The notes under the pieces: generated by a model | Seen by the model: only the letters and a program-made list of their open reading frames with translations | Database searches by the model: none | Told to the model about the DNA's origin: nothing | Position numbers and translations under genes: made by a program | Source: a virus | DNA: 24,530 nucleotides | Virus record (IMG/VR): IMGVR_UViG_3300017992_000761 | Span: 1 to 24,530 of that record | Reading direction: 5' to 3' (one strand) | Shown: piece by piece, positions 4,006-23,968 of the stretch | How the letters are laid out: each line of letters opens with the position of its first letter | Numbering within the stretch: position 1 is the first letter of the stretch

Positions 4006-4772
4006 GGCACAATCGCTCCGAAATCGAGCTGAGACACGTCGAGGACAAACCCTGTGCTGACCTCGAGCGCCCAATTGAAGGTCATGTATGCGGGCAGCAG
4101 CCACGTCAGGTGGTGGAAGAGGTGCACATTCATCAGGTCGAGGAACTCGGCCTCGGTCATCGTATCCGGCTGCTGGACCTCGATCACCAGGTTGGCCCGC
4201 TCGCTGAGCCACGCGCCGCCGCCCAGACTGTAGGCGGCTGGCCCCGCGTTGACCCCCGGCCAGAAGGTCAGCGTGGGCGGGTTCGCCAAGTCAGTGCCGC
4301 GCTGCCGCCAGCTGCGCACGTAGGCGTCGCCGAGCAGCGTCTCCAGCGACGTGTCGACGTGGCGCTGGTTGTTGCCCTTGGCGGCCTGGTCCTTTGCGGC
4401 ACACCGGGCGCGGACCTCCGACCGGGAGTCGGTGGCAGCCGTGCGGACGCCGAGCGCCTTCACGTGAGACTCGAGCCGCTCATCTGAGGTGGCCGGCGTC
4501 TGGTTGGCGTGGAGCTTCTCTGCAGCTCGGGTGCGCCCCGCCTCGGCACGCGCAATTGCCACGTGCTCGATGTGCACCAGGGTGTCGTCATCCGTGGTGT
4601 AAGCAGACCCGCGCATGGCCTGCAGCTCGCGGTACCAACGCCACGCATAGGGGCGCTCGCCCTCGGTGTTACTATCCCGCTTGTCGAGCTCGCCGCCGTA
4701 GTGGCCGATCTTCCGATCGTGTGACCAGGGCGGCTTCCCCTCGAGCTTGGTCTTGTCGATGTGGACGCCCAT
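4002..4772 (-). CDS. Probable baseplate wedge protein, Mu gp48 / P2 gpI-like (DUF2313-type)
   Basis: A 256-residue protein. Residues about 90-165 contain an R-rich helix pair (SDERLESHVKALGVRT, then SRSEVRARC). Residues about 168-250 have the 'F-x-G-x-N-A-G' start and a C-terminal 'LLPAYMTFNWAL' segment, matching the P-A-h-x-h-x-F/W ending seen in gp48/gpI wedge proteins. It lies downstream of gp47, as gp48 does in Mu, although two extra genes intervene. Its likely role is to close the baseplate wedge and carry fibres. The fold is inferred from pattern and synteny. The first 80 residues, which are Lys/Arg/Glu-rich, are not recognised. Confidence 0.55.
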   Translation of the reverse strand: MGVHIDKTKLEGKPPWSHDRKIGHYGGELDKRDSNTEGERPYAWRWYRELQAMRGSAYTTDDDTLVHIEHVAIARAEAGRTRAAEKLHANQTPATSDERLESHVKALGVRTAATDSRSEVRARCAAKDQAAKGNNQRHVDTSLETLLGDAYVRSWRQRGTDLANPPTLTFWPGVNAGPAAYSLGGGAWLSERANLVIEVQQPDTMTEAEFLDLMNVHLFHHLTWLLPAYMTFNWALEVSTGFVLDVSQLDFGAIVP

Positions 4773-5218
4773 CAGTACACCGTGACCGTGACTGCAGCCG
4801 AGTCAGCCACACCGGCGGCATTGAACGTGCGGATCCGAATCGTGGTGGGCGACTCGATCTCCCACGTGCGCCAGCGCATGGCGCCAGCGCCGCAGCTCAC
4901 ACGGCAGCGCTTGATGTTGACCGGGTGGACGTTGCCGTAGGCGTCCTCCCAACTGTCGTCGAAGGTGATGCGGATGTCGCCGGTTGCCAGAAAGGCCACC
5001 GCGGGCGCGTAGTCCTCGCCGACACCATTCTGGCCGTTGTAGGCCAGCAGGTTGCCGGTCGTGGCGCCGGTCTGCTCGACGGTGACGGACGCCAGCTTGG
5101 CGCGGCGCACCATGGCAACCATGGCCGAGCACATGGCGGCATACTGCGCCGCCGTCCAGCCGTGGATCGGACCGCCGCCGAGCCGCAGCGGCAGGGGTGC
5201 GAAGCCTCCAAACGCCAT
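4772..5218 (-). CDS. Baseplate-linked paralogue B (DSWEDAYG family)
   Basis: A 148-residue protein of unknown function. After an N-terminal helix (WTAAQYAAMCSAMVAMVRRA, 21-40) it becomes beta-rich. It contains F86-DDSWEDAYG (to 95) and a C-terminal IRIRTFNAAGVADSAAVTVTV. The upstream neighbour has the same layout (WEDSYEDAYG, then VRIRCWDAAGAAALDKTVTVTI), so the two are tandem paralogues. The start ATG is in a TGATG overlap. They lie between gp47 and gp48 genes, where Mu has none. A structural role such as fibre adaptor or baseplate decoration is likely but unproven. Confidence 0.65.
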   Translation of the reverse strand: MAFGGFAPLPLRLGGGPIHGWTAAQYAAMCSAMVAMVRRAKLASVTVEQTGATTGNLLAYNGQNGVGEDYAPAVAFLATGDIRITFDDSWEDAYGNVHPVNIKRCRVSCGAGAMRWRTWEIESPTTIRIRTFNAAGVADSAAVTVTVY

Positions 5219-5754
5219 CAGCCCACCGTTGTCGAGATGGTCACCGTGACCGTCTTATCAAGCGCCGCCGCGCCGGCCGCGTCCCAGCAGCGGATCCGAA
5301 CGGCATTGTAGGAGCCGTTTGCTGTGGTGTCGTGTCGCGTCCAGGTACACCCGCCGGCAGCCGTGCCCTCTAGATCGGCGTGTACGTGGCCGATGTTGAT
5401 GTCGCCAGCGATCCCGTATGCGTCCTCGTAGCTGTCCTCCCAGGTGAGAAGCACCACACCGTCGCTCTCGCGCGTCGCCGTGGGGGCCCGCGCGCCGGCC
5501 ATGGCGTCGTAGCTATCGACGGTCGGATCCGCGGTTCCCGTGTCGTCCTGCGTGTACGTGATGGTCGCGAAGTCCGCCACCTTCCCCAGCGCCTCGACGT
5601 CGGCACACAGGCGCGCGAACTGCTGGGCGGTCACGTCGGTCTTGGCGTTGATCGCGCCCTGGCCCTGGTAGTTCTCCTTTTGGAGATGGCCGCCGTAGGT
5701 GGTGTGGTCGTTGGTGCGCTCCCAAACGGGGGCGCCGGTGGGAGTGGTGGTCAT
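5218..5754 (-). CDS. Baseplate-linked paralogue A (DSYEDAYG family)
   Basis: A 178-residue protein. An N-terminal polar part carries helix VTAQQFARLCADVEALGKV (41-59), equivalent to the helix of the downstream paralogue. The shared core is TWEDSYEDAYG (104-114), and the end is AVRIRCWDAAGAAALDKTVTVTIS. It is longer than paralogue B because of an N-terminal extension with many His and Gln residues. The start lies four bases beyond the stop of gp47. There is no enzyme motif. A gene duplication inside the baseplate operon is the simplest reading. Confidence 0.65.
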   Translation of the reverse strand: MTTTPTGAPVWERTNDHTTYGGHLQKENYQGQGAINAKTDVTAQQFARLCADVEALGKVADFATITYTQDDTGTADPTVDSYDAMAGARAPTATRESDGVVLLTWEDSYEDAYGIAGDINIGHVHADLEGTAAGGCTWTRHDTTANGSYNAVRIRCWDAAGAAALDKTVTVTISTTVG

Positions 5755-5758
5755 GGTG

Positions 5759-7276
5759 TTACTTCACGTAGATGCCGAAGTGGCGGGGCATCAGGATCCT
5801 CGGGTCGAGATCCACGGTGCCCGGCACGGCCGGCGCGGTGGAGCTGCGATATGACCAGTCGATGTCGGTGATCTCCGGGTGCGCCAGCTTCATGTTGAGC
5901 AGCTGGGTAATCGACAGGTCGCTGGGCCACTCGTCGGCGATGAATGGATGGCGGAGCGCTCGGGGCAGCCGGTTTGCGTCGCTGGTGTTCTCGCCGGGGC
6001 CGAGCGAGCGCATCTGGGTCCGCCACGTCTCGCCATAGGCGTCGATGTTCACCGCCGCCGGGCTGATGTAGTCGCCAATCGCCACGGCCACGTTCTGGCC
6101 ATCGACGAACGGCGCATCCAGCGTCAACTCCCAGACGCCCGTACCGCCGCCCACCCCCGTCACGAGTCGGGTGTAGAAGCGGCGCTCGGTGGGGCTCCAC
6201 CAGCTAACGTGCGTCTGGCCAGCAATCGGTGAGGTAGTCGTCGCCGCGTCCACCTTGATGTCGTAGGTGGCGCCAAGTGCCGTGACGGTCACCTTCGTGT
6301 CGCCGCCGTCAAGCGGGGGCCATGGCGTGGCGTCCACCCAGCCGGTGCCATTGCCGCCCTGCGACGCCGCGTCGGGGATGGTGACCTCGAGCGAGCAGTC
6401 AACACTGACGTCCACGCAGGTGCCAACCACAACCTCGTTGCCGTCCGGCATCGCGTCATGAATGGCGCCGCGCACAATGGCCAGCGCGGCCGTCGGCAGC
6501 GCGCGGGTGAAGCTGTTGCGGTCGGGGTCGATGTCTCGGATCACCACGACCTTGACCGAGCTGGGGCCGCCGAGCGCCGGGTAGACGAAGGCATACTGCG
6601 CCGACGCCAGCGCGTTCAGCGCCAGCTCGATCAGGTGGCCCGCGTTGCCGCCCTGCGGTACGTTGCGCCGCCGGTTGAGGATGCGCGCCCGCTTGCGCTC
6701 GTCGGTCTCCGCGTCTCGGCCGCCGCGCAGCGGGCTTTCGACGGAAACCTCCGCCTCGACCTGCACGTTGAGCGGCGGGTTGGTGAACTTGACGATTTCC
6801 CCGGCGTCCAGCTCGGTGTCGGCACCGGTGTCGATCGTGATCACGTTCACGGCCGAGCCGTTCACCACCACCGAATGGGTGCCGGCCACCTTGCCGCGCT
6901 TGCCGTTGGGCAAAAGGAACTGTGTACCGTCGACCAGTGTGGTGGCGCTGCCGCCGGTGACGCCGACGTAGATCTTACCCGAGCTCGGCGAGGCCTCGAC
7001 TACCGGCAGCCCCTCGGCCTCACGGATCTGGTCGAGCTTGTCGCCCGTAGCGGTGAGCACGTCGCTCTGCCGCTCGGCGATCCGAATGTTGGTGAACTGG
7101 ACGATTCCGACGTTGGCCAGCGCCGTGGCCAGGATGTGCCAGTCGGTGCCGGGCTGGGTCGGCGGCGTCGCGATCCCCAGGTCCTTGGCCTGGTTCTCGA
7201 TGTCTCGCAAGATCTCATCGCGCAGCTCCGGCGCACCGGAGGGCATCCAGATTTTCCCGACCTCGTATGATGCCAT
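5759..7276 (-). CDS. J: Baseplate wedge protein J (Mu gp47-like)
   Basis: A 505-residue protein with the baseplate-J pattern. The N-terminal helical domain (about 15-95) has LRDEILRDIENQAKDLGI and LTATGDKLDQIREAEGLP. A beta barrel follows (100-180: GKIYVGVTGGSATTLVDGTQ, then INTIDTGADTELDAG-like strands). The linker SPLRGGRDAETDERKRARIL (about 184-203) is the hallmark 'G-G-x-D-x-E-T-D-E-x-x-R-x-R' of this family. The C-terminal half is less typical and ends HFGIYVK. GAGGAG lies about 9 bases before the ATG. It directly follows gp25, as in Mu and P2. It forms the wedge dimers of the baseplate. Confidence 0.92.
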   Translation of the reverse strand: MASYEVGKIWMPSGAPELRDEILRDIENQAKDLGIATPPTQPGTDWHILATALANVGIVQFTNIRIAERQSDVLTATGDKLDQIREAEGLPVVEASPSSGKIYVGVTGGSATTLVDGTQFLLPNGKRGKVAGTHSVVVNGSAVNVITIDTGADTELDAGEIVKFTNPPLNVQVEAEVSVESPLRGGRDAETDERKRARILNRRRNVPQGGNAGHLIELALNALASAQYAFVYPALGGPSSVKVVVIRDIDPDRNSFTRALPTAALAIVRGAIHDAMPDGNEVVVGTCVDVSVDCSLEVTIPDAASQGGNGTGWVDATPWPPLDGGDTKVTVTALGATYDIKVDAATTTSPIAGQTHVSWWSPTERRFYTRLVTGVGGGTGVWELTLDAPFVDGQNVAVAIGDYISPAAVNIDAYGETWRTQMRSLGPGENTSDANRLPRALRHPFIADEWPSDLSITQLLNMKLAHPEITDIDWSYRSSTAPAVPGTVDLDPRILMPRHFGIYVK

Positions 7277-7280
7277 CGGG

Positions 7281-7724
7281 CTACTCCTCGGAGGACACGC
7301 GGTCTGCGAGCCCGGTGGTCAGATCGGTGTAGACCATCAACACGGTGGCTCGGCCGGTGGACAGCCGCCCCACGAGGAGCTGATCAATGCGGATCACCCT
7401 CTCTACGTGGGTCAGCTGGTGGTAGGCGGCGCGAACGTTTCGCCGCACGGTGTATTCAAACGTCTGATCCATCCGGTCCGGCAGCTCGATGCCCAGCTTC
7501 GGCAGCACCGTGGACGAGCCGCGGATGGTGCGCATGATCAGCTGGACCCGCTGGCGCACCGGCGGCATACCCTTGAGCTGAAGCGTCTTCGGGTCCTGCT
7601 CGAAGTCGCCCGTGCCCGGGTTGATCCACCGCGAGAGCGAGCCGTTGCCCGTGGGAATGGCTGCCACCTCCAATGGTGAGCCGAGCGCAATGGGGCTCGT
7701 AACTATGGGGCCAGCAATCCACAT
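7281..7724 (-). CDS. gp25-like baseplate wedge protein (Mu gp46 / P2 gpW type)
   Basis: A 147-residue protein. The family core is seen at about 50-80 (MPPVRQRVQLIMRTIRGSS, then LPKLGIELPD), which resembles the 'eav-xQ-x-h-x-h-L-x-T-x-x-GER-x-x-x-P-x-hG' motif of gp25 proteins. A helical segment and a beta C-terminus (TGRATVLMVYTDLTTGL) follow. Its place between spike and gp47 is the standard one. The ATG overlaps the stop of the proline-rich gene (TGATG). The protein joins wedges to the sheath. The N-terminal extension of about 30 residues is Pro/Gly-rich. Confidence 0.8.
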   Translation of the reverse strand: MWIAGPIVTSPIALGSPLEVAAIPTGNGSLSRWINPGTGDFEQDPKTLQLKGMPPVRQRVQLIMRTIRGSSTVLPKLGIELPDRMDQTFEYTVRRNVRAAYHQLTHVERVIRIDQLLVGRLSTGRATVLMVYTDLTTGLADRVSSEE

Positions 7725-8026
7725 CAGGCGGCGTCCAATGGGCAGGGGATCAGGAAATTGGGGAGAGGCGGCAGTTGCGGGGGCGCCGGCAGTCCCGGGA
7801 TCGGAATCGGTATCGAGAGCGACAGCGACAACCCGGGGATGGCGAGGCTGAACGTGGGCAACGGGGGGAGCTGCGGGGGTGCCGGAAGCCCAGGGATTGG
7901 AATGGGGATCGCCAGGTTGAGGCTCAATCCCGGGATGGCGATCGAGAACGACGGCAGGGGTGGGAGCGCAGGGATCCCCGGCAACCCGGGGATGGGCAGC
8001 GGGATCGTGAACGAGCAGAGGGACAC
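7724..8026 (-). CDS. Ile/Leu/Pro-repeat protein next to the spike gene
   Basis: A 100-residue protein made almost wholly of Pro, Ile, Leu, Ala, Gly and Ser. Three copies of a 32-residue unit (8-39, 40-71, and 72-94 incomplete) each contain an IP-x-P-I-P-G-L-P turn, an LPPLP box and an F-S-h-A-I-P-G-L-S strand. Apart from Asp98 there are no charged residues; Cys4 and Cys95 flank the repeats. It is tightly coupled to the genes on both sides: TGATG with gp25, and one base after the spike stop. It is therefore expressed with the central baseplate. It may form a fibrous or membrane-active element near the spike, but it matches no family I know. It is a true ORF because its codon-level repeat is in frame and the junctions are exact. 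Confidence 0.75.
   Translation of the reverse strand: MSLCSFTIPLPIPGLPGIPALPPLPSFSIAIPGLSLNLAIPIPIPGLPAPPQLPPLPTFSLAIPGLSLSLSIPIPIPGLPAPPQLPPLPNFLIPCPLDAA
7745..8005 (-). repeat. 96-base tandem repeat, about 2.7 copies, coding for the Pro-rich protein
   Basis: Units are approximately 7910-8005, 7814-7909 and 7745-7813 (partial). Each encodes the same 32-residue pattern. Copies two and three are closer to each other (both encode PGLPAPPQLPPLP) than to copy one (PGLPGIPALPPLP), pointing to a recent duplication of the inner unit. Confidence 0.8.
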
Positions 8027-8027
8027 G

Positions 8028-8690
8028 CTATGGGCCGAGCAGTACGCTCGTCGCTGGGCCTACCGGCATCGGTGCGCCACTGGGGTCCACCTTGATCGCC
8101 GCGGCCGTGGGGTTGGGGCCCAGCAACACCTTGTCCGCCTTGAGCCAGATGGTCCCCCCCTCGAGCACCTGGATCGACGCCTTGCCGTCCTTGGCACACA
8201 GGGCGATGCCGTTCTGCTCGCTGGCCTCGATGATGTGCCCGGCGGCGCTGAGCGTGGCTTGGCCGGTGATGCGGTCGAGCATGAAGATGTAGTCACCGCC
8301 GCTGCCGCCAGGCGGCTGGCTGATCACCAGCGAGATGTGCTGATCCTTGCAGAACACCCGGGCGCCGAAGTCCTTGCCCGTGGAGTGTAGGGCCGTCTCG
8401 CCGGGGGCCAGCTGCCCCACCACGTCGGCGCTGCGCTCGTCGCGGGCAGCCACACAGATCGCGTCGGTGCCCCCGCAGCTGCGGAGGACGACGCCCTCCA
8501 CCACACCGTCGTCGTCCTTGGGGGCGGGCAACGCGGTGACGCCCAGGGCCCCAAACATGTCAACCTCGGCGAAGTGCTCAACGTCGTCCTGGTCGTCGCC
8601 AGCCGGGTTGACGCACTGAGCGACGGGCAGGGAGGTCTGCTCGTCAACTCTAGAGTCGCCGATGTGAACGAGGTCGGTGTCGTTGGCCAT
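8028..8690 (-). CDS. Baseplate spike protein (Mu gp45 / P2 gpV-like)
   Basis: A 220-residue protein. The N-terminal part (40-70: VDMFGALGVTALPAP, then VEGVVLRSCGG) matches the gp45-type OB-fold with its 'D-x-h-G-h-x-G-h-x-x-x-P' signature. A middle region (about 85-130: GETALHSTGKDFGARVFC) follows. From about 130 the sequence has short periodic strands with Gly and Asp turns (ITGQATLSAAGHIIEAS, then GKASIQVLEGGTIWLKADK, then VLLGP), as in the trimeric beta-helix of spikes. It sits between hub and gp25, as in Mu. The trimer pierces the outer membrane. No PAAR tip gene was found nearby. Confidence 0.82.
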   Translation of the reverse strand: MANDTDLVHIGDSRVDEQTSLPVAQCVNPAGDDQDDVEHFAEVDMFGALGVTALPAPKDDDGVVEGVVLRSCGGTDAICVAARDERSADVVGQLAPGETALHSTGKDFGARVFCKDQHISLVISQPPGGSGGDYIFMLDRITGQATLSAAGHIIEASEQNGIALCAKDGKASIQVLEGGTIWLKADKVLLGPNPTAAAIKVDPSGAPMPVGPATSVLLGP

Positions 8691-8693
8691 GGG

Positions 8694-9869
8694 TCAGTAC
8701 ACGTAGGAGGACACGCGACGCATGGTGAGCGCCGTGGATGGGCCGCTGTCGTAGCGGTGCGAGACGGCCTCCACCCACAGCGTCTCGAACACGTTGCACA
8801 CCTCGTCGTGCACCTTGATCATCGTGTCGGGTGCATAGACGCCGCCGTCGGGGGCCAGGTGGCCCTGGACCTCGCACTGGTAGAGCAGCGTGTCCTTGAA
8901 GCGCTCGGCGACCGCGCGAAGCATCGCCTTCATCAGCTGCGCCTCGTTCTTGCTGTCCGAGTCGCGGCGATAGAAGAGCCGATAGAGCCCCGGGGCACTC
9001 TTGGGGCCATCGGCCGGCAGCTGGCGCTCGATGGTCACCAGCTGATCGGTGATGTGCTTGTCGAGCGCGCCGTCGCTGAAGGCGAAGGGCTGCTCGACCT
9101 TCATCGGGTTACGCGTCTTGCCGACCCGCCCCTGCTTGCCGACGAACAGCACGAAGCTGGGGAAGCCGGACAGGTCCCGCCGCGCCGAGCTGTTCTTGAT
9201 CGTGTTGCTGGCGCTCTTGACCGGATCGCGGAGCCGCCGCAGCTCACACATGGCGCCCTGCTGGTAGTTGGGGGCAGCCACCGCCAGCTGGTTCCGGTCG
9301 GCGCCGGGCTGGACGGTCGCCCCGTGACGGGCCACCAGTGACTGGCAGAAGGCCAGCACGCGCTCGTTGTCGTCCGGCTTGTAGTCCTCGAGCTTGGCCT
9401 GCTTGAAGTCCGCGCCGGGCTGGGCGCCACCGATGGACACGCCGGTGCGAATGTTCCGCAGCATCACCTCGTCGTCGCCGACCACGGTGTCGATCCCACA
9501 CGGCCCAGCGGCCAGCAGCAGCGCCGCCGAGAGCGTCATGTCCTTGGTGAGCTTGACCGTGGGATCTACGTCACACTCGGCCAGATCGGCGATGTAGTCG
9601 CGACCCGAGCAGCGGATCGTCGAGCCGTCGCTGCCGCCGCACTCGGTGACGTCCACCCGGCCCTTGAGCTGCTGGTGGCCGTGGAGCGATAGCGTGACGG
9701 GCTGGAGGTCCAGGCCTGTCAGCTTGGCGGGGTCCTGGTCCCACAGCTCGAACGAGAACGAGTCGGTGGGCGAGGTGAACGACGTATCCAGCTGGTAGCT
9801 CTGGACGTTGCCGCGCTGCTCTCCCAGCAGCTCCCACGCAATCGAGAGCGCTGGCTCGGTCTGGGCCAC
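8694..9869 (-). CDS. Baseplate hub protein (Mu gp44 / gpP-like, gpD/gp27 family)
   Basis: A 391-residue protein. The N-terminal strand region (about 20-75: VQSYQLDTSFTSPTDSFSFEL, then LSLHGHQQLKGRVDV) is the usual hub pattern of a ligand-like beta domain. IRCSGRDYIADLAECDV (about 86-102) matches the 'h-x-G-R-D-x-h-x-D-L-h-D' hallmark of gp44/gpP proteins. A helical insert then leads to the LAFCQSLVARHGATV segment (about 182-196). It lies between the gp43-like gene and the spike with only three bases on each side. It forms the trimeric hub that carries the spike and contacts the tube. Confidence 0.88.
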   Translation of the reverse strand: MAQTEPALSIAWELLGEQRGNVQSYQLDTSFTSPTDSFSFELWDQDPAKLTGLDLQPVTLSLHGHQQLKGRVDVTECGGSDGSTIRCSGRDYIADLAECDVDPTVKLTKDMTLSAALLLAAGPCGIDTVVGDDEVMLRNIRTGVSIGGAQPGADFKQAKLEDYKPDDNERVLAFCQSLVARHGATVQPGADRNQLAVAAPNYQQGAMCELRRLRDPVKSASNTIKNSSARRDLSGFPSFVLFVGKQGRVGKTRNPMKVEQPFAFSDGALDKHITDQLVTIERQLPADGPKSAPGLYRLFYRRDSDSKNEAQLMKAMLRAVAERFKDTLLYQCEVQGHLAPDGGVYAPDTMIKVHDEVCNVFETLWVEAVSHRYDSGPSTALTMRRVSSYVY

Positions 9870-9872
9870 GGG

Positions 9873-10790
9873 TCAGGCCGCCTCGCCGATCTTGCCCGGG
9901 TGCCAGATCTTCGTGCCCTTGGGCACCTCGGGGGCGCCGGCCGCCAGTGCGGGATTGTGGTCGAGGAGCTCGGTAACGGTGAGCCCCAGCGTCGAGGCCA
10001 CCACACTGATGGTCGACAGCGCCGCCACCGTATGCTCGTAGAGCTTCTCGGCCGGGTTGCCCACCGTGTCCTTCAGGTGCAGCGCCGAGTGCTTGACCCG
10101 CTGGGCGCTCTGCTTGAGCGGCCACGCCTCCGGGTCGCCGAGCTCGTCGATGGTGTTGCTCAGCTTGTCACAGTTGAACGCCACCGCGTCCATCTTCGCC
10201 GCGAACATGTCGCCGGCCAGTTGTACCTGGGTCAACGCCCCGTCGATTGCAGCCAGCGGGTCCACAGTGGGCTCTGGCGGCTCCTCCTGCTGCCAGTCAA
10301 CGCGGGCCACCTGGGCGTCCAGGGCGCCGGCCTCCGCCGTGGTGCTTTGGAGATCAATCACCGCCTCGCCGGTCAGGTCCAGCTCCTCGGTCTCCGGGGC
10401 GTGGATGAAGTCGATCTCGAGATCCACGCCGTCGCGCTTGAGCACGTTCAGCGTCTCGTTGTAGCTGACCGCAACGGCCTTGAACTTGCCGTGCACGGGG
10501 TCCCACAGGTCGCCCGGCTCACGGTCGAGGCACGCGTTGAGGAAGTCGGTGAGCCCCTGGGTGAACAGCTTCTCATGGGGGCCGCGCACGATGTCCTCGC
10601 GCATCGGGATCGAGTAGCGGAACGTCAGGTTGCGGGCGCCGAGCGGCTCGATCTGCTCGCGGTCGCGGAAGACGTACTTGTGCTTCGCCAGCTCGTGCTG
10701 GAACCCGACGGTGCGCCCGGTGATCGGCACCTTCAGGCCGCGCCACTCCAGCGTCCTGAGCTGCTTGAACAGGTCTTGAATGGCTGCCAT
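9873..10790 (-). CDS. DNA-circularisation-type tail protein (Mu gp43-like) with C-terminal LysM-like domain
   Basis: A 305-residue protein. Residues 8-90 (LRTLEWRGLKVPITGR, FQHELAKHKYVFRD, then GARNLTFRYSIPM) match the N-terminal domain of the Mu gp43/DNA circulation family. A middle helical and acidic linker covers about 130-245. Residues about 252-300 look like a LysM/gpX domain: helix TLGLTVTELLDHNPAL, then PKGTKIWHPGK. In P2 this LysM-like protein (gpX) is separate, so this is a fused form. The gene sits between tape measure and hub, as in Mu. It probably lines the tube-baseplate junction. Confidence 0.83.
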   Translation of the reverse strand: MAAIQDLFKQLRTLEWRGLKVPITGRTVGFQHELAKHKYVFRDREQIEPLGARNLTFRYSIPMREDIVRGPHEKLFTQGLTDFLNACLDREPGDLWDPVHGKFKAVAVSYNETLNVLKRDGVDLEIDFIHAPETEELDLTGEAVIDLQSTTAEAGALDAQVARVDWQQEEPPEPTVDPLAAIDGALTQVQLAGDMFAAKMDAVAFNCDKLSNTIDELGDPEAWPLKQSAQRVKHSALHLKDTVGNPAEKLYEHTVAALSTISVVASTLGLTVTELLDHNPALAAGAPEVPKGTKIWHPGKIGEAA

Positions 10791-14329: not shown

Positions 14330-15901
14330 TCAGCCGCTGCTGACCTCGGCGAGACGGAAGGTGGCCTGGTGCAGCAGGTCGATCACGTGCAGGTCGTGGC
14401 CCGTTTCGAGCCGGCCCGCGTTGTTCGGGTCGACGACACAGCGAAGGCCCTCCTTGGAGGCGTCCTCGTTCTGGATCAGGCCCTTGTCGGCGAAGTCGTC
14501 GATGAAGCCGCGGATAAACGGCTTGAACAGCGACGGGGTGATGACGCCCGGCACCAGCTTCTGGTTCGGGTTGACCGAACCATCACTGAGGTACTGGTCG
14601 TCCTTCAGGCGCTTGTTCTCGTAGTTCAGCGCGTAGTTGACCAGCACCGTGTCCATGTAGAGGTCGGCGACGCTCACCCGATGCGTCTCGGCGGCCCGGA
14701 AGTCGTCCTGGGTGCCGGCGCTGTTCTTCGATCGCGTGCTGATGCTCATCACGATGTAGCTGCCCACCTGGTCCGAAGCGATCGGGGTGAGCCCATCGGT
14801 GATGGCGTCGTTCTGGTTGGTCTGGGTGGGCCAATCCGCCTGGGAGTAGGCCGGCGGCACGAGCCAGTCGCTCGCGTTGCGGTAGCTGTCGAAGTTGTGG
14901 GCGGCGAGCACGCTCTCGCGCTTCTGCCGGATGCTGGCCACGTTGGCGGCGAGCTCGGCCGGGTCGGCCCAGCTGTTGGGCTGCCAGGCGATCTGGAGCC
15001 GCTCGTAGTTGCGCGCCGTCGCCAGCGTCTGCGCGTTGGCCAGCGTGCCCTGGTAGCCCGCGATGCCCACCGAGCGCAGGCCCGGGTTGGGTTCGCTCTT
15101 GTTGCTAATGTGGGTCTGCAGGTTGCCCAGGCTGGTGGCATCCCAGCACGTGGTGACGATGTAGTAGTAGCGGGCCGCGTTGATGGTCGCGAGCGCCGTC
15201 GCCAGGTTGGCGGCCTCCGTGGTCGAACCCTCGGCGCCGGTCGTGCCGGTGCCCAGGCCGAGCGCGTCGGTGGTGCCGCCGTTCTCGGTCGCCACGGAGG
15301 TGGTCTTGCCGGCGTCAATGAATGCGCGGACCCGGATCGCTCCGGTGGTGCCGTCGCCCTGGCTGATGCCGTTGATCTTGGCCTCGAGGGTCAGCACGCC
15401 GGCCGCGTTGTCGGCGGTGACCGGCAGGTGGGAGCGATCGTTGATTGCCGCCTTCATGGCCGTGGCGATCGTGGTGACCGTACTCGCGTCGGTGAACGCG
15501 ACCGTGATCTCCTCGCCGCAGATCTCCACCCCGGTGACGCCGGTGGCGGTGGGGTCGTCGGTCCATGTGACGGTGAGGTCGGCCTTGGCCGGGGCGCCGC
15601 CGCTGGTCTCCGCGTAGGGCAGGGCCCAGAGCTTGGTGATCTTGTTCGTCTTGAGGATCCGCCGGAGCGCCCGGTGGAGCGGGGAGCCGGCGCCAGCGCC
15701 GTCGATCGCGGTCTGCTCGTTGGTGACCTCGTAGACGGTGTTTGCCGTCCAGGTGCCCGAGCCGGTGAGCTTGGGCGCCACCACAATGATGTCGCGCTGG
15801 CCGGCGGCAGCCGTCGCGGGACCCTGGGCGAAGAGGATCTCGGCATACGAGCCGGGGACGCGCCAGGTGGACGGGATGCCGAGGATCGGAATCTCTGCCA
15901 T
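14330..15901 (-). CDS. Tail sheath protein (Mu gpL-like)
   Basis: A 523-residue protein. The N-terminus (about 10-60: STWRVPGSYAEILFAQGP, then GQRDIIVVAPKLTGSGT) matches the Mu gpL start, where the sheath's inner strand exchange begins. Residues about 120-215 form a domain with 'VTGVEICGEEITVAFTDAST' strands. The C-terminal end (about 450-520: DGSVNPNQKLVPGVITPSLF, KGLIQN, and NNAGRLETGHDLHVIDLLHQ) matches the conserved sheath C-terminal domain. AGGAG precedes the ATG. It contracts to drive the tube. Confidence 0.92.
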   Translation of the reverse strand: MAEIPILGIPSTWRVPGSYAEILFAQGPATAAAGQRDIIVVAPKLTGSGTWTANTVYEVTNEQTAIDGAGAGSPLHRALRRILKTNKITKLWALPYAETSGGAPAKADLTVTWTDDPTATGVTGVEICGEEITVAFTDASTVTTIATAMKAAINDRSHLPVTADNAAGVLTLEAKINGISQGDGTTGAIRVRAFIDAGKTTSVATENGGTTDALGLGTGTTGAEGSTTEAANLATALATINAARYYYIVTTCWDATSLGNLQTHISNKSEPNPGLRSVGIAGYQGTLANAQTLATARNYERLQIAWQPNSWADPAELAANVASIRQKRESVLAAHNFDSYRNASDWLVPPAYSQADWPTQTNQNDAITDGLTPIASDQVGSYIVMSISTRSKNSAGTQDDFRAAETHRVSVADLYMDTVLVNYALNYENKRLKDDQYLSDGSVNPNQKLVPGVITPSLFKPFIRGFIDDFADKGLIQNEDASKEGLRCVVDPNNAGRLETGHDLHVIDLLHQATFRLAEVSSG

Positions 15902-23455: not shown

Positions 23456-23968
23456 TCAGTCGTCCCAGATTTGGCTACAGGCCTCGGCGCCGTCGGCGAT
23501 GGCGTCCTTGCGCTTGGGCGGGGCCGGGTGTGTCCCGTCCACCTTGGTGCCCTCGTCGTCGAGGTAGGCACCCAGGGGCGAGACGGGCAGCCCAGCGATG
23601 CCGAGCGTGCAGCCGGCCCACATGTCGGCGCTCAGCTCGTCGGTGCGCTTGCCGCCGTGGTGGTCGATGAGGTGGCCGAGCTCGTGGCCGAAGATGCCGA
23701 CGATGGCCGGGTAGCCGTAACGGCTGGCGATGCGCTCCAGCTCGGGGCGGTTGTAGACGACGCGGATACGTGGCCCGATGAAGAACACACAGGCGGGGTC
23801 GACCGCCTCAGAGGGGAGCAGCTGCGGGGTCTTGCACTCGGGGCAGACCAGCGACAACGACTGGAGGGCGTCGCCGAAAGCTTGCTCCGCGAGACCCACC
23901 TGGACGCACGGGGCGGCGGGCTGGGCGCAGGCGGCGAGCAGAGCGAGGGCGGGGAGCCAGCGGGTCAT
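23456..23968 (-). CDS. Lipoprotein with M48-type zinc metallopeptidase motifs
   Basis: A 170-residue protein. An N-terminal lipobox (MTRWLPALALLAAC, Cys14) predicts export and lipid attachment. HELGH (95-99) is the zinc-binding motif; ELSAD (111-115) has the E-x-x-A-D third-ligand pattern; THPAPPKR (146-153) matches the M48 'T-H-P-x-x-x-x-R' end motif. A CPEC pair (42-45) may be a small extra zinc site. It is short for an M48 protease: core only. The gene overlaps its upstream neighbour by four bases (ATGA). A secreted, membrane-anchored protease in a capsid operon suggests a cargo or lysogenic/lysis accessory, not a head component. Confidence 0.72.
   Translation of the reverse strand: MTRWLPALALLAACAQPAAPCVQVGLAEQAFGDALQSLSLVCPECKTPQLLPSEAVDPACVFFIGPRIRVVYNRPELERIASRYGYPAIVGIFGHELGHLIDHHGGKRTDELSADMWAGCTLGIAGLPVSPLGAYLDDEGTKVDGTHPAPPKRKDAIADGAEACSQIWDD

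Follow-up and report, generated by a model that had tools for sequence, protein, structure and literature searches.

A three-unit, proline-rich protein encoded beside a phage tail spike gene is a candidate spike cap outside the PAAR family

In contractile machines a spike of threefold symmetry has to taper to a point, and to our knowledge the known answers to the symmetry problem at the spike end are PAAR caps and HxH apices. The viral record analyzed here (IMG/VR; 24,530 nt, hereafter the window) raises the question of what a small, proline-rich protein encoded directly after the spike gene contributes to the spike. The tail genes of this 24.5-kb record are carried on the minus strand, in the order sheath (14330-15901; phrog_165, E 1.5e-60), a tape-measure-sized open reading frame (ORF), a DNA_circ_N tail protein (9873-10790; PF07157, above its cut-off), a baseplate hub resembling gpP and Mu gp44 (8694-9869; phrog_177, E 6e-16), the central spike protein (8028-8690), the three-unit gene considered here (7724-8026), a gp25-like baseplate wedge protein (7281-7724; phrog_43, E 2e-7) and a gp47/Baseplate_J wedge protein (5759-7276; PF04865, E 4e-20). 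The presence of a sheath gene indicates that the tail is contractile.

The three-unit gene starts with GTG at 8026, after a one-base gap from the spike stop codon, and ends with TGA at 7726-7724, which shares one base with the ATG of gp25. Its translation is VSLCSFTIPLPIPGLPGIPALPPLPSFSIAIPGLSLNLAIPIPIPGLPAPPQLPPLPTFSLAIPGLSLSLSIPIPIPGLPAPPQLPPLPNFLIPCPLDAA, a protein of 100 residues with 30% proline and a single charged residue, Asp98. Among the 26 genes of the window, its product has both the lowest charge (1%, median 20%) and the highest proline content (median 5%), and at the mean charge rate of the window the probability of finding no more than one charged residue in 100 is ∼6e-9. The sequence repeats with a period of 32 residues (z = 14 over residue shuffles), and a division anchored on the C-terminal cysteine yields unit 1 (residues 1-30, starting VSLCSF; 7937-8026), which is shorter because it begins at the N terminus, unit 2 (residues 31-62; 7841-7936) and unit 3 (residues 63-94; 7745-7840), with 81% identity between units 2 and 3. 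Two cysteines, Cys4 (8015-8017) and Cys95 of a CPLD motif (7742-7744), fall in alignment columns that are invariant across the family described below. The original prediction had given this gene its position, its lone charged residue, its 32-residue repeat and its tight junctions on both sides, and the present analysis bears out all four, with the gene on the minus strand.

Because the plus strand is likewise open across the three-unit gene, composition alone is no proof of coding, and homology has to decide; the GC3 of the minus-strand reading is high, as in the neighboring genes. BLAST against 50,697 phage records, with the window protein and two relatives (from loci L018 and L032) as queries, returned no match, probably in part owing to low-complexity filtering, as the GenBank record MW202476.1 does hold a member at 4938-5249. 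Direct viral scans with the window protein or a small alignment recovered a near-identical contig only. Relatives were reached through neighboring genes, using gp47 and the spike as baits, of which gp47 found most: ∼35 further contigs were obtained, nearly all with a relative in the slot on the spike side, and the family counts 33 distinct members once duplicates are removed. Purifying selection is evident in eight of nine gene pairs (dN/dS 0.03-0.43), with a value of 0.75 in the remaining pair. Judged by this comparison of sequences, with the minus-strand reading conserved in 33 phages, the three-unit protein is the product of a real coding gene, and the expectation that it would be tied to the central baseplate is matched by conserved synteny in the relatives. 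The member in MW202476.1 is without annotation there; a CDS at 4940-5395 uses another frame over it, so that the gene is absent from the annotation of that record.

The prediction that no known family would match was likewise borne out: the window member falls into none of the families in Pfam, PHROG, NCBIfam or the PDB, nor was a Pfam match accepted for any of 29 members. Hits in Pfam and NCBIfam to unrelated families such as TldD, GlgS and Corona_3, with E values from 1e-4 to 1, were rejected as low-complexity noise. One relative (L032) matches phrog_25430, of unknown function, over 31 residues at E 2e-4, a weak match in which no stretch is significant by itself, and the window member gave no match to this group. 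We found no description of such a protein in open-licence full texts. A first scan of genome contigs found no relatives; a second yielded one contig from a Chloroflexi metagenome-assembled genome (MAG), carrying the alternative 83-residue slot protein described below, and 200 sampled genomes of the phylum Chloroflexi gave one more weak match.

The architecture of the family is uniform in the number of its units. All 33 members have three (length/period 2.97-3.22), over protein lengths of 99-125 residues and periods of 32-41 residues. Every member has a cysteine near the N terminus, usually as C-x-F, and a C-terminal CP[LFI], with D, N or E as the usual next residue. When the units are set in register, the N-terminal cysteine lies -2 to +6 residues from where the C-terminal one would map; in a closed body this would place it in the third turn, where the two chain ends come together. 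These two cysteines and a few prolines are the only invariant columns. Proline makes up 10-30% of the residues, and no histidine is conserved (the window protein has none at all).

To what extent are the three units kept alike? Within one protein, units 2 and 3 are on average 73% identical, whereas a given unit compared across proteins is 40% identical. At the DNA level, a comparison of units 2 and 3 within a gene shows almost saturated synonymous sites (mean pS 0.62) and an identity at fourfold sites of 43% (201/467), where codon usage would give 39% by chance. Mean nonsynonymous divergence between units is 0.24, and that of orthologous pairs with pS > 0.5 ranges from 0.24 to 0.46; at similar silent divergence, the units thus diverge nonsynonymously about as much as orthologous proteins do. 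Since the silent sites are near saturation while the units remain alike, the equivalence of the three units is maintained rather than left over from a fresh duplication, and recent DNA duplication as the source of the likeness is rejected for most members. In three genes (L029, L059 and L018) the units seem to have been homogenised recently, with a pS of 0.11-0.35 between the second and the third; in two of them, L029:4218-4529 (pS 0.11) and L059:3699-4028 (pS 0.23), these two units differ very little in their DNA. The simplest reading of these sequences is that all three units are equally constrained and that their equivalence is kept up by purifying selection together with homogenisation from time to time.

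Regularly spaced prolines and alternating hydrophobic residues, next to a gene for a beta-rich spike whose relatives are trimeric, could also suggest a stiff polyproline or beta rod, or a homotrimeric extension lengthening the spike, as the original prediction had proposed; a 60-residue version with one unit, found in L020 and L021, could indeed be a homotrimer. A rod, however, should vary in repeat number, and in this family the number stays at three in all 33 members while the unit length varies; moreover, it is not obvious what two invariant terminal cysteines would do in an open rod. We therefore regard the rod or extension as unlikely. A count fixed at three combined with a variable unit length fits a body on a threefold axis, whereas a rod would show the reverse, and units kept alike over long times are what threefold symmetry would require.

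The identity of the neighboring protein is central to this argument. No Pfam model recognises the 220-residue, gp45/gpV-like product of 8028-8690, but its predicted structure (pLDDT 76) resembles known spikes. Foldseek matched it to the spikes of PlPVC1, PhiTE, an Algoriphagus contractile injection system (CIS) and phi92, all at E < 1e-3 (1e-4 for the PhiTE spike and 4e-4 for phi92 gp138), and VIA-align matched it to those of PhiTE (Z 9.1) and Mu (Z 9.0) (residues 1-125), and also to those of phiKZ and P2. VIA-align ranked G-box/TCP10 beta-sheet domains equally high, over residues 87-186 only, and these matches reflect a common repetitive beta arrangement. As modeled, in a prediction of the monomer only, the neighbor would be a central spike of the Mu/P2 type, with an OB fold followed by a triple beta-helix. 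Its last 25 residues are unstructured in the model, and it has no HxH apex: an HxH motif is absent from the final 70 residues in all 32 spikes examined. A search of 25 records, which may be incomplete, with the single Pfam model for PAAR (PF05488) gave no match at E ≤ 1.

The three-unit gene is closely tied to this spike gene. In 25 of 28 complete loci its start codon lies -4 to +7 nt from the end of the spike gene, commonly with a 4-base overlap, an arrangement typical of coupled translation. In L032 the order is changed: the gene lies 5' of the spike, between hub and spike, again with a 4-nt overlap. The connection is looser in L040 and L022, where 1285 nt and 302 nt, respectively, separate the two genes. 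The gap to gp25 reaches 2.5 kb and exceeds 700 nt in 13 of the 28 complete loci, because other genes, often antisense and lipoprotein-like, have been inserted. The three-unit gene tracks the spike, not gp25. Of the original view that it is wedged between the two, the fixed place beside the spike stands; adjacency to gp25 does not, since other genes often intervene, and in L032 the gene precedes the spike.

Strict adjacency and likely coupled translation would suit a spike-specific chaperone or assembly factor, acting outside the virion, as well as they suit a subunit. AlphaFold2, run on the three-unit protein alone with 27 sequences, returned a disordered model (pLDDT 44.7, pTM 0.19) that offers no usable structure, which is also compatible with such a factor. 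Yet a chaperone need not keep three equivalent units, and with no PAAR found and no HxH motif, the end of the spike would be left with no known cap; we consider this explanation improbable.

The composition of the window protein had further suggested a membrane-active tip, which could mean a peptide that inserts into a host membrane during injection, and both this protein and its relative in L022 are almost wholly uncharged and hydrophobic. Across the family, however, members carry from 1 to 27 charged residues (acidic plus basic) within the same architecture, and 10-30% proline disfavours transmembrane helices, so that membrane insertion appears very unlikely. Absence of charge, which had been taken for a property of the protein as such, is private to the window member and a few others rather than a trait of the family. 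Of the predicted spike-tip role, the position at the tip remains plausible, while the hydrophobic, membrane-active character does not, because homologues are commonly charged and the property is therefore not selected. Least likely of all is another role in the central baseplate, for example as a plug set between the spike, the hub and the tape measure, which would fit the operon place among hub, spike and wedge genes equally well, as would the gene between hub and spike in L032, but which adds a requirement, given that the published center of the Mu baseplate contains no subunit beyond the tube initiator, the hub, the spike and the tape-measure C terminus (PMC11915804).

We consider it probable that a single chain of the three-unit protein caps the trimeric spike with pseudo-threefold symmetry, doing a job like that of PAAR without being a PAAR protein. 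This proposal builds on the family, its three units, the selection acting on it and its synteny, all of which are observed, and on the predicted fold of the neighboring spike. With no recognisable PAAR or HxH apex, and with a small three-unit protein coupled to the spike, we infer a cap role, and with it the closed pseudo-threefold fold, the place on the spike, the cysteine seal and a part in puncture. The chain would fold into a pseudo-threefold body in which each unit supplies a proline-rich arm flanked by short beta strands. Of the three hairpins, two would be internal; the third would form where the N- and C-terminal strands meet, fastened by the two cysteines through a disulfide or a metal, which would seal the body at its open third turn. 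The low-confidence AlphaFold2 model has short strands at residues 3-6, 27-31, 34-38, 60-63, 66-69 and 91-94, a pattern of two internal hairpins and two terminal strands that is only a hint of such a fold. One copy on the threefold axis, with each unit contacting one spike chain, would close and sharpen the blunt end of the trimeric spike, doing for a spike that lacks an HxH metal apex what PAAR does for VgrG and T4 gp5.4 for gp5. On contraction, the cap would lead the tube, reaching the outer membrane before any other part of it.

It is instructive to compare the three-unit protein with known tips. PAAR closes the trimeric prism of VgrG, with a base of pseudo-trimeric symmetry and a vertex that binds metal; T4 gp5.4 does likewise, and the spikes of P2, phi92 and R2 tie their own ends with iron-bound histidines (PMC10715212). 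PAAR proteins of type VI secretion systems (T6SS), extracellular contractile injection systems (eCIS) and T4 (gp5.4; PF05488) are also ∼90-100 residues long, often encoded beside the spike and equipped with conserved cysteines, and they cap a trimeric spike with pseudo-trimeric symmetry, as we propose for the three-unit protein. The latter is likewise small, and its gene lies next to that of a spike in a contractile system, as spike fold, sheath and adjacency indicate. In contrast to PAAR, the family has three explicit sequence repeats and 10-30% proline and lacks the PAAR motif: the PF05488 profile gave no match at E ≤ 1 in 29 members, and a PAAR-type His/Cys metal site is absent, there being no conserved histidine and only two invariant cysteines. 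By these features the three-unit protein is not a member of the PAAR family, although its mode of action may be similar. Francisella IglG (DUF4280) is a known PAAR replacement of a non-canonical type, and its cysteines are functional (PMC10715212). IglG has four cysteines for metal, whereas the three-unit family has two conserved ones at the chain ends, and DUF4280 is not among the Pfam results for the family. The HxH iron-binding apex of P2 gpV, phi92 gp138, R2 pyocin and Mu gp45 solves the same problem of closing the end of a trimeric beta-helix, but it is part of the spike chain, in contrast to the separate gene that follows the HxH-free spikes here.

The fuller picture, of a PAAR-free spike tip in which three near-identical proline-rich units form a closed pseudo-threefold ring with cysteine-sealed ends, so that the symmetry is written in the sequence itself, has in our estimate about an even chance of being correct. 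The proposed role, a spike tip, is of a known kind; the protein itself appears to belong to no family of the libraries searched. If the proposal is true, it adds a third answer to the tip problem, unrelated in sequence to the other two and hence a case of convergent evolution, and it explains a gene that annotators overlook or read in an incorrect frame. The repeated units would also offer a natural setting in which to test how selection preserves symmetry inside one protein.

The slot beside the spike is not occupied in the same way everywhere. In L070, a divergent relative, the spike is followed directly by gp25, with no three-unit ORF. The 60-residue ORF of L020 (4284-4466; the same in L021) lies between spike and gp25 and contains a single unit with both cysteines (C..F...CPLD); it is possibly a homotrimeric version of the cap. 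In L037 (∼4301-4549) and L024 (∼1615-1863) the slot holds a different Cys/Pro protein of 82-83 residues (MAC...PPFP.LP...FCCK...CPRE), which had no match in a PHROG search and is perhaps an alternative tip.

The antisense lipoprotein-like genes inserted after the spike/three-unit pair and before gp25 were found at L014:3654-4196, L015:3107-3913, L027:3614-4423, L036:3337-3990, L041:3620-4468, L043:3076-3900, L009:2994-3599, L006:5344-6138, L040:3621-4136 and L032:2671-3327, in every case on the minus strand. Many overlap the upstream stop codon by 4 bases, most are without a Pfam match, and several share a common signal sequence like LEWLGGSVLVYVLVAACS; they could be superinfection-exclusion or conversion lipoproteins. 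In the window itself, a putative lipoprotein with an HELGH motif and a weak match to Peptidase_M48 (E 0.005, below the cut-off) is encoded near the end of the record, at 23456-23968 on the minus strand.
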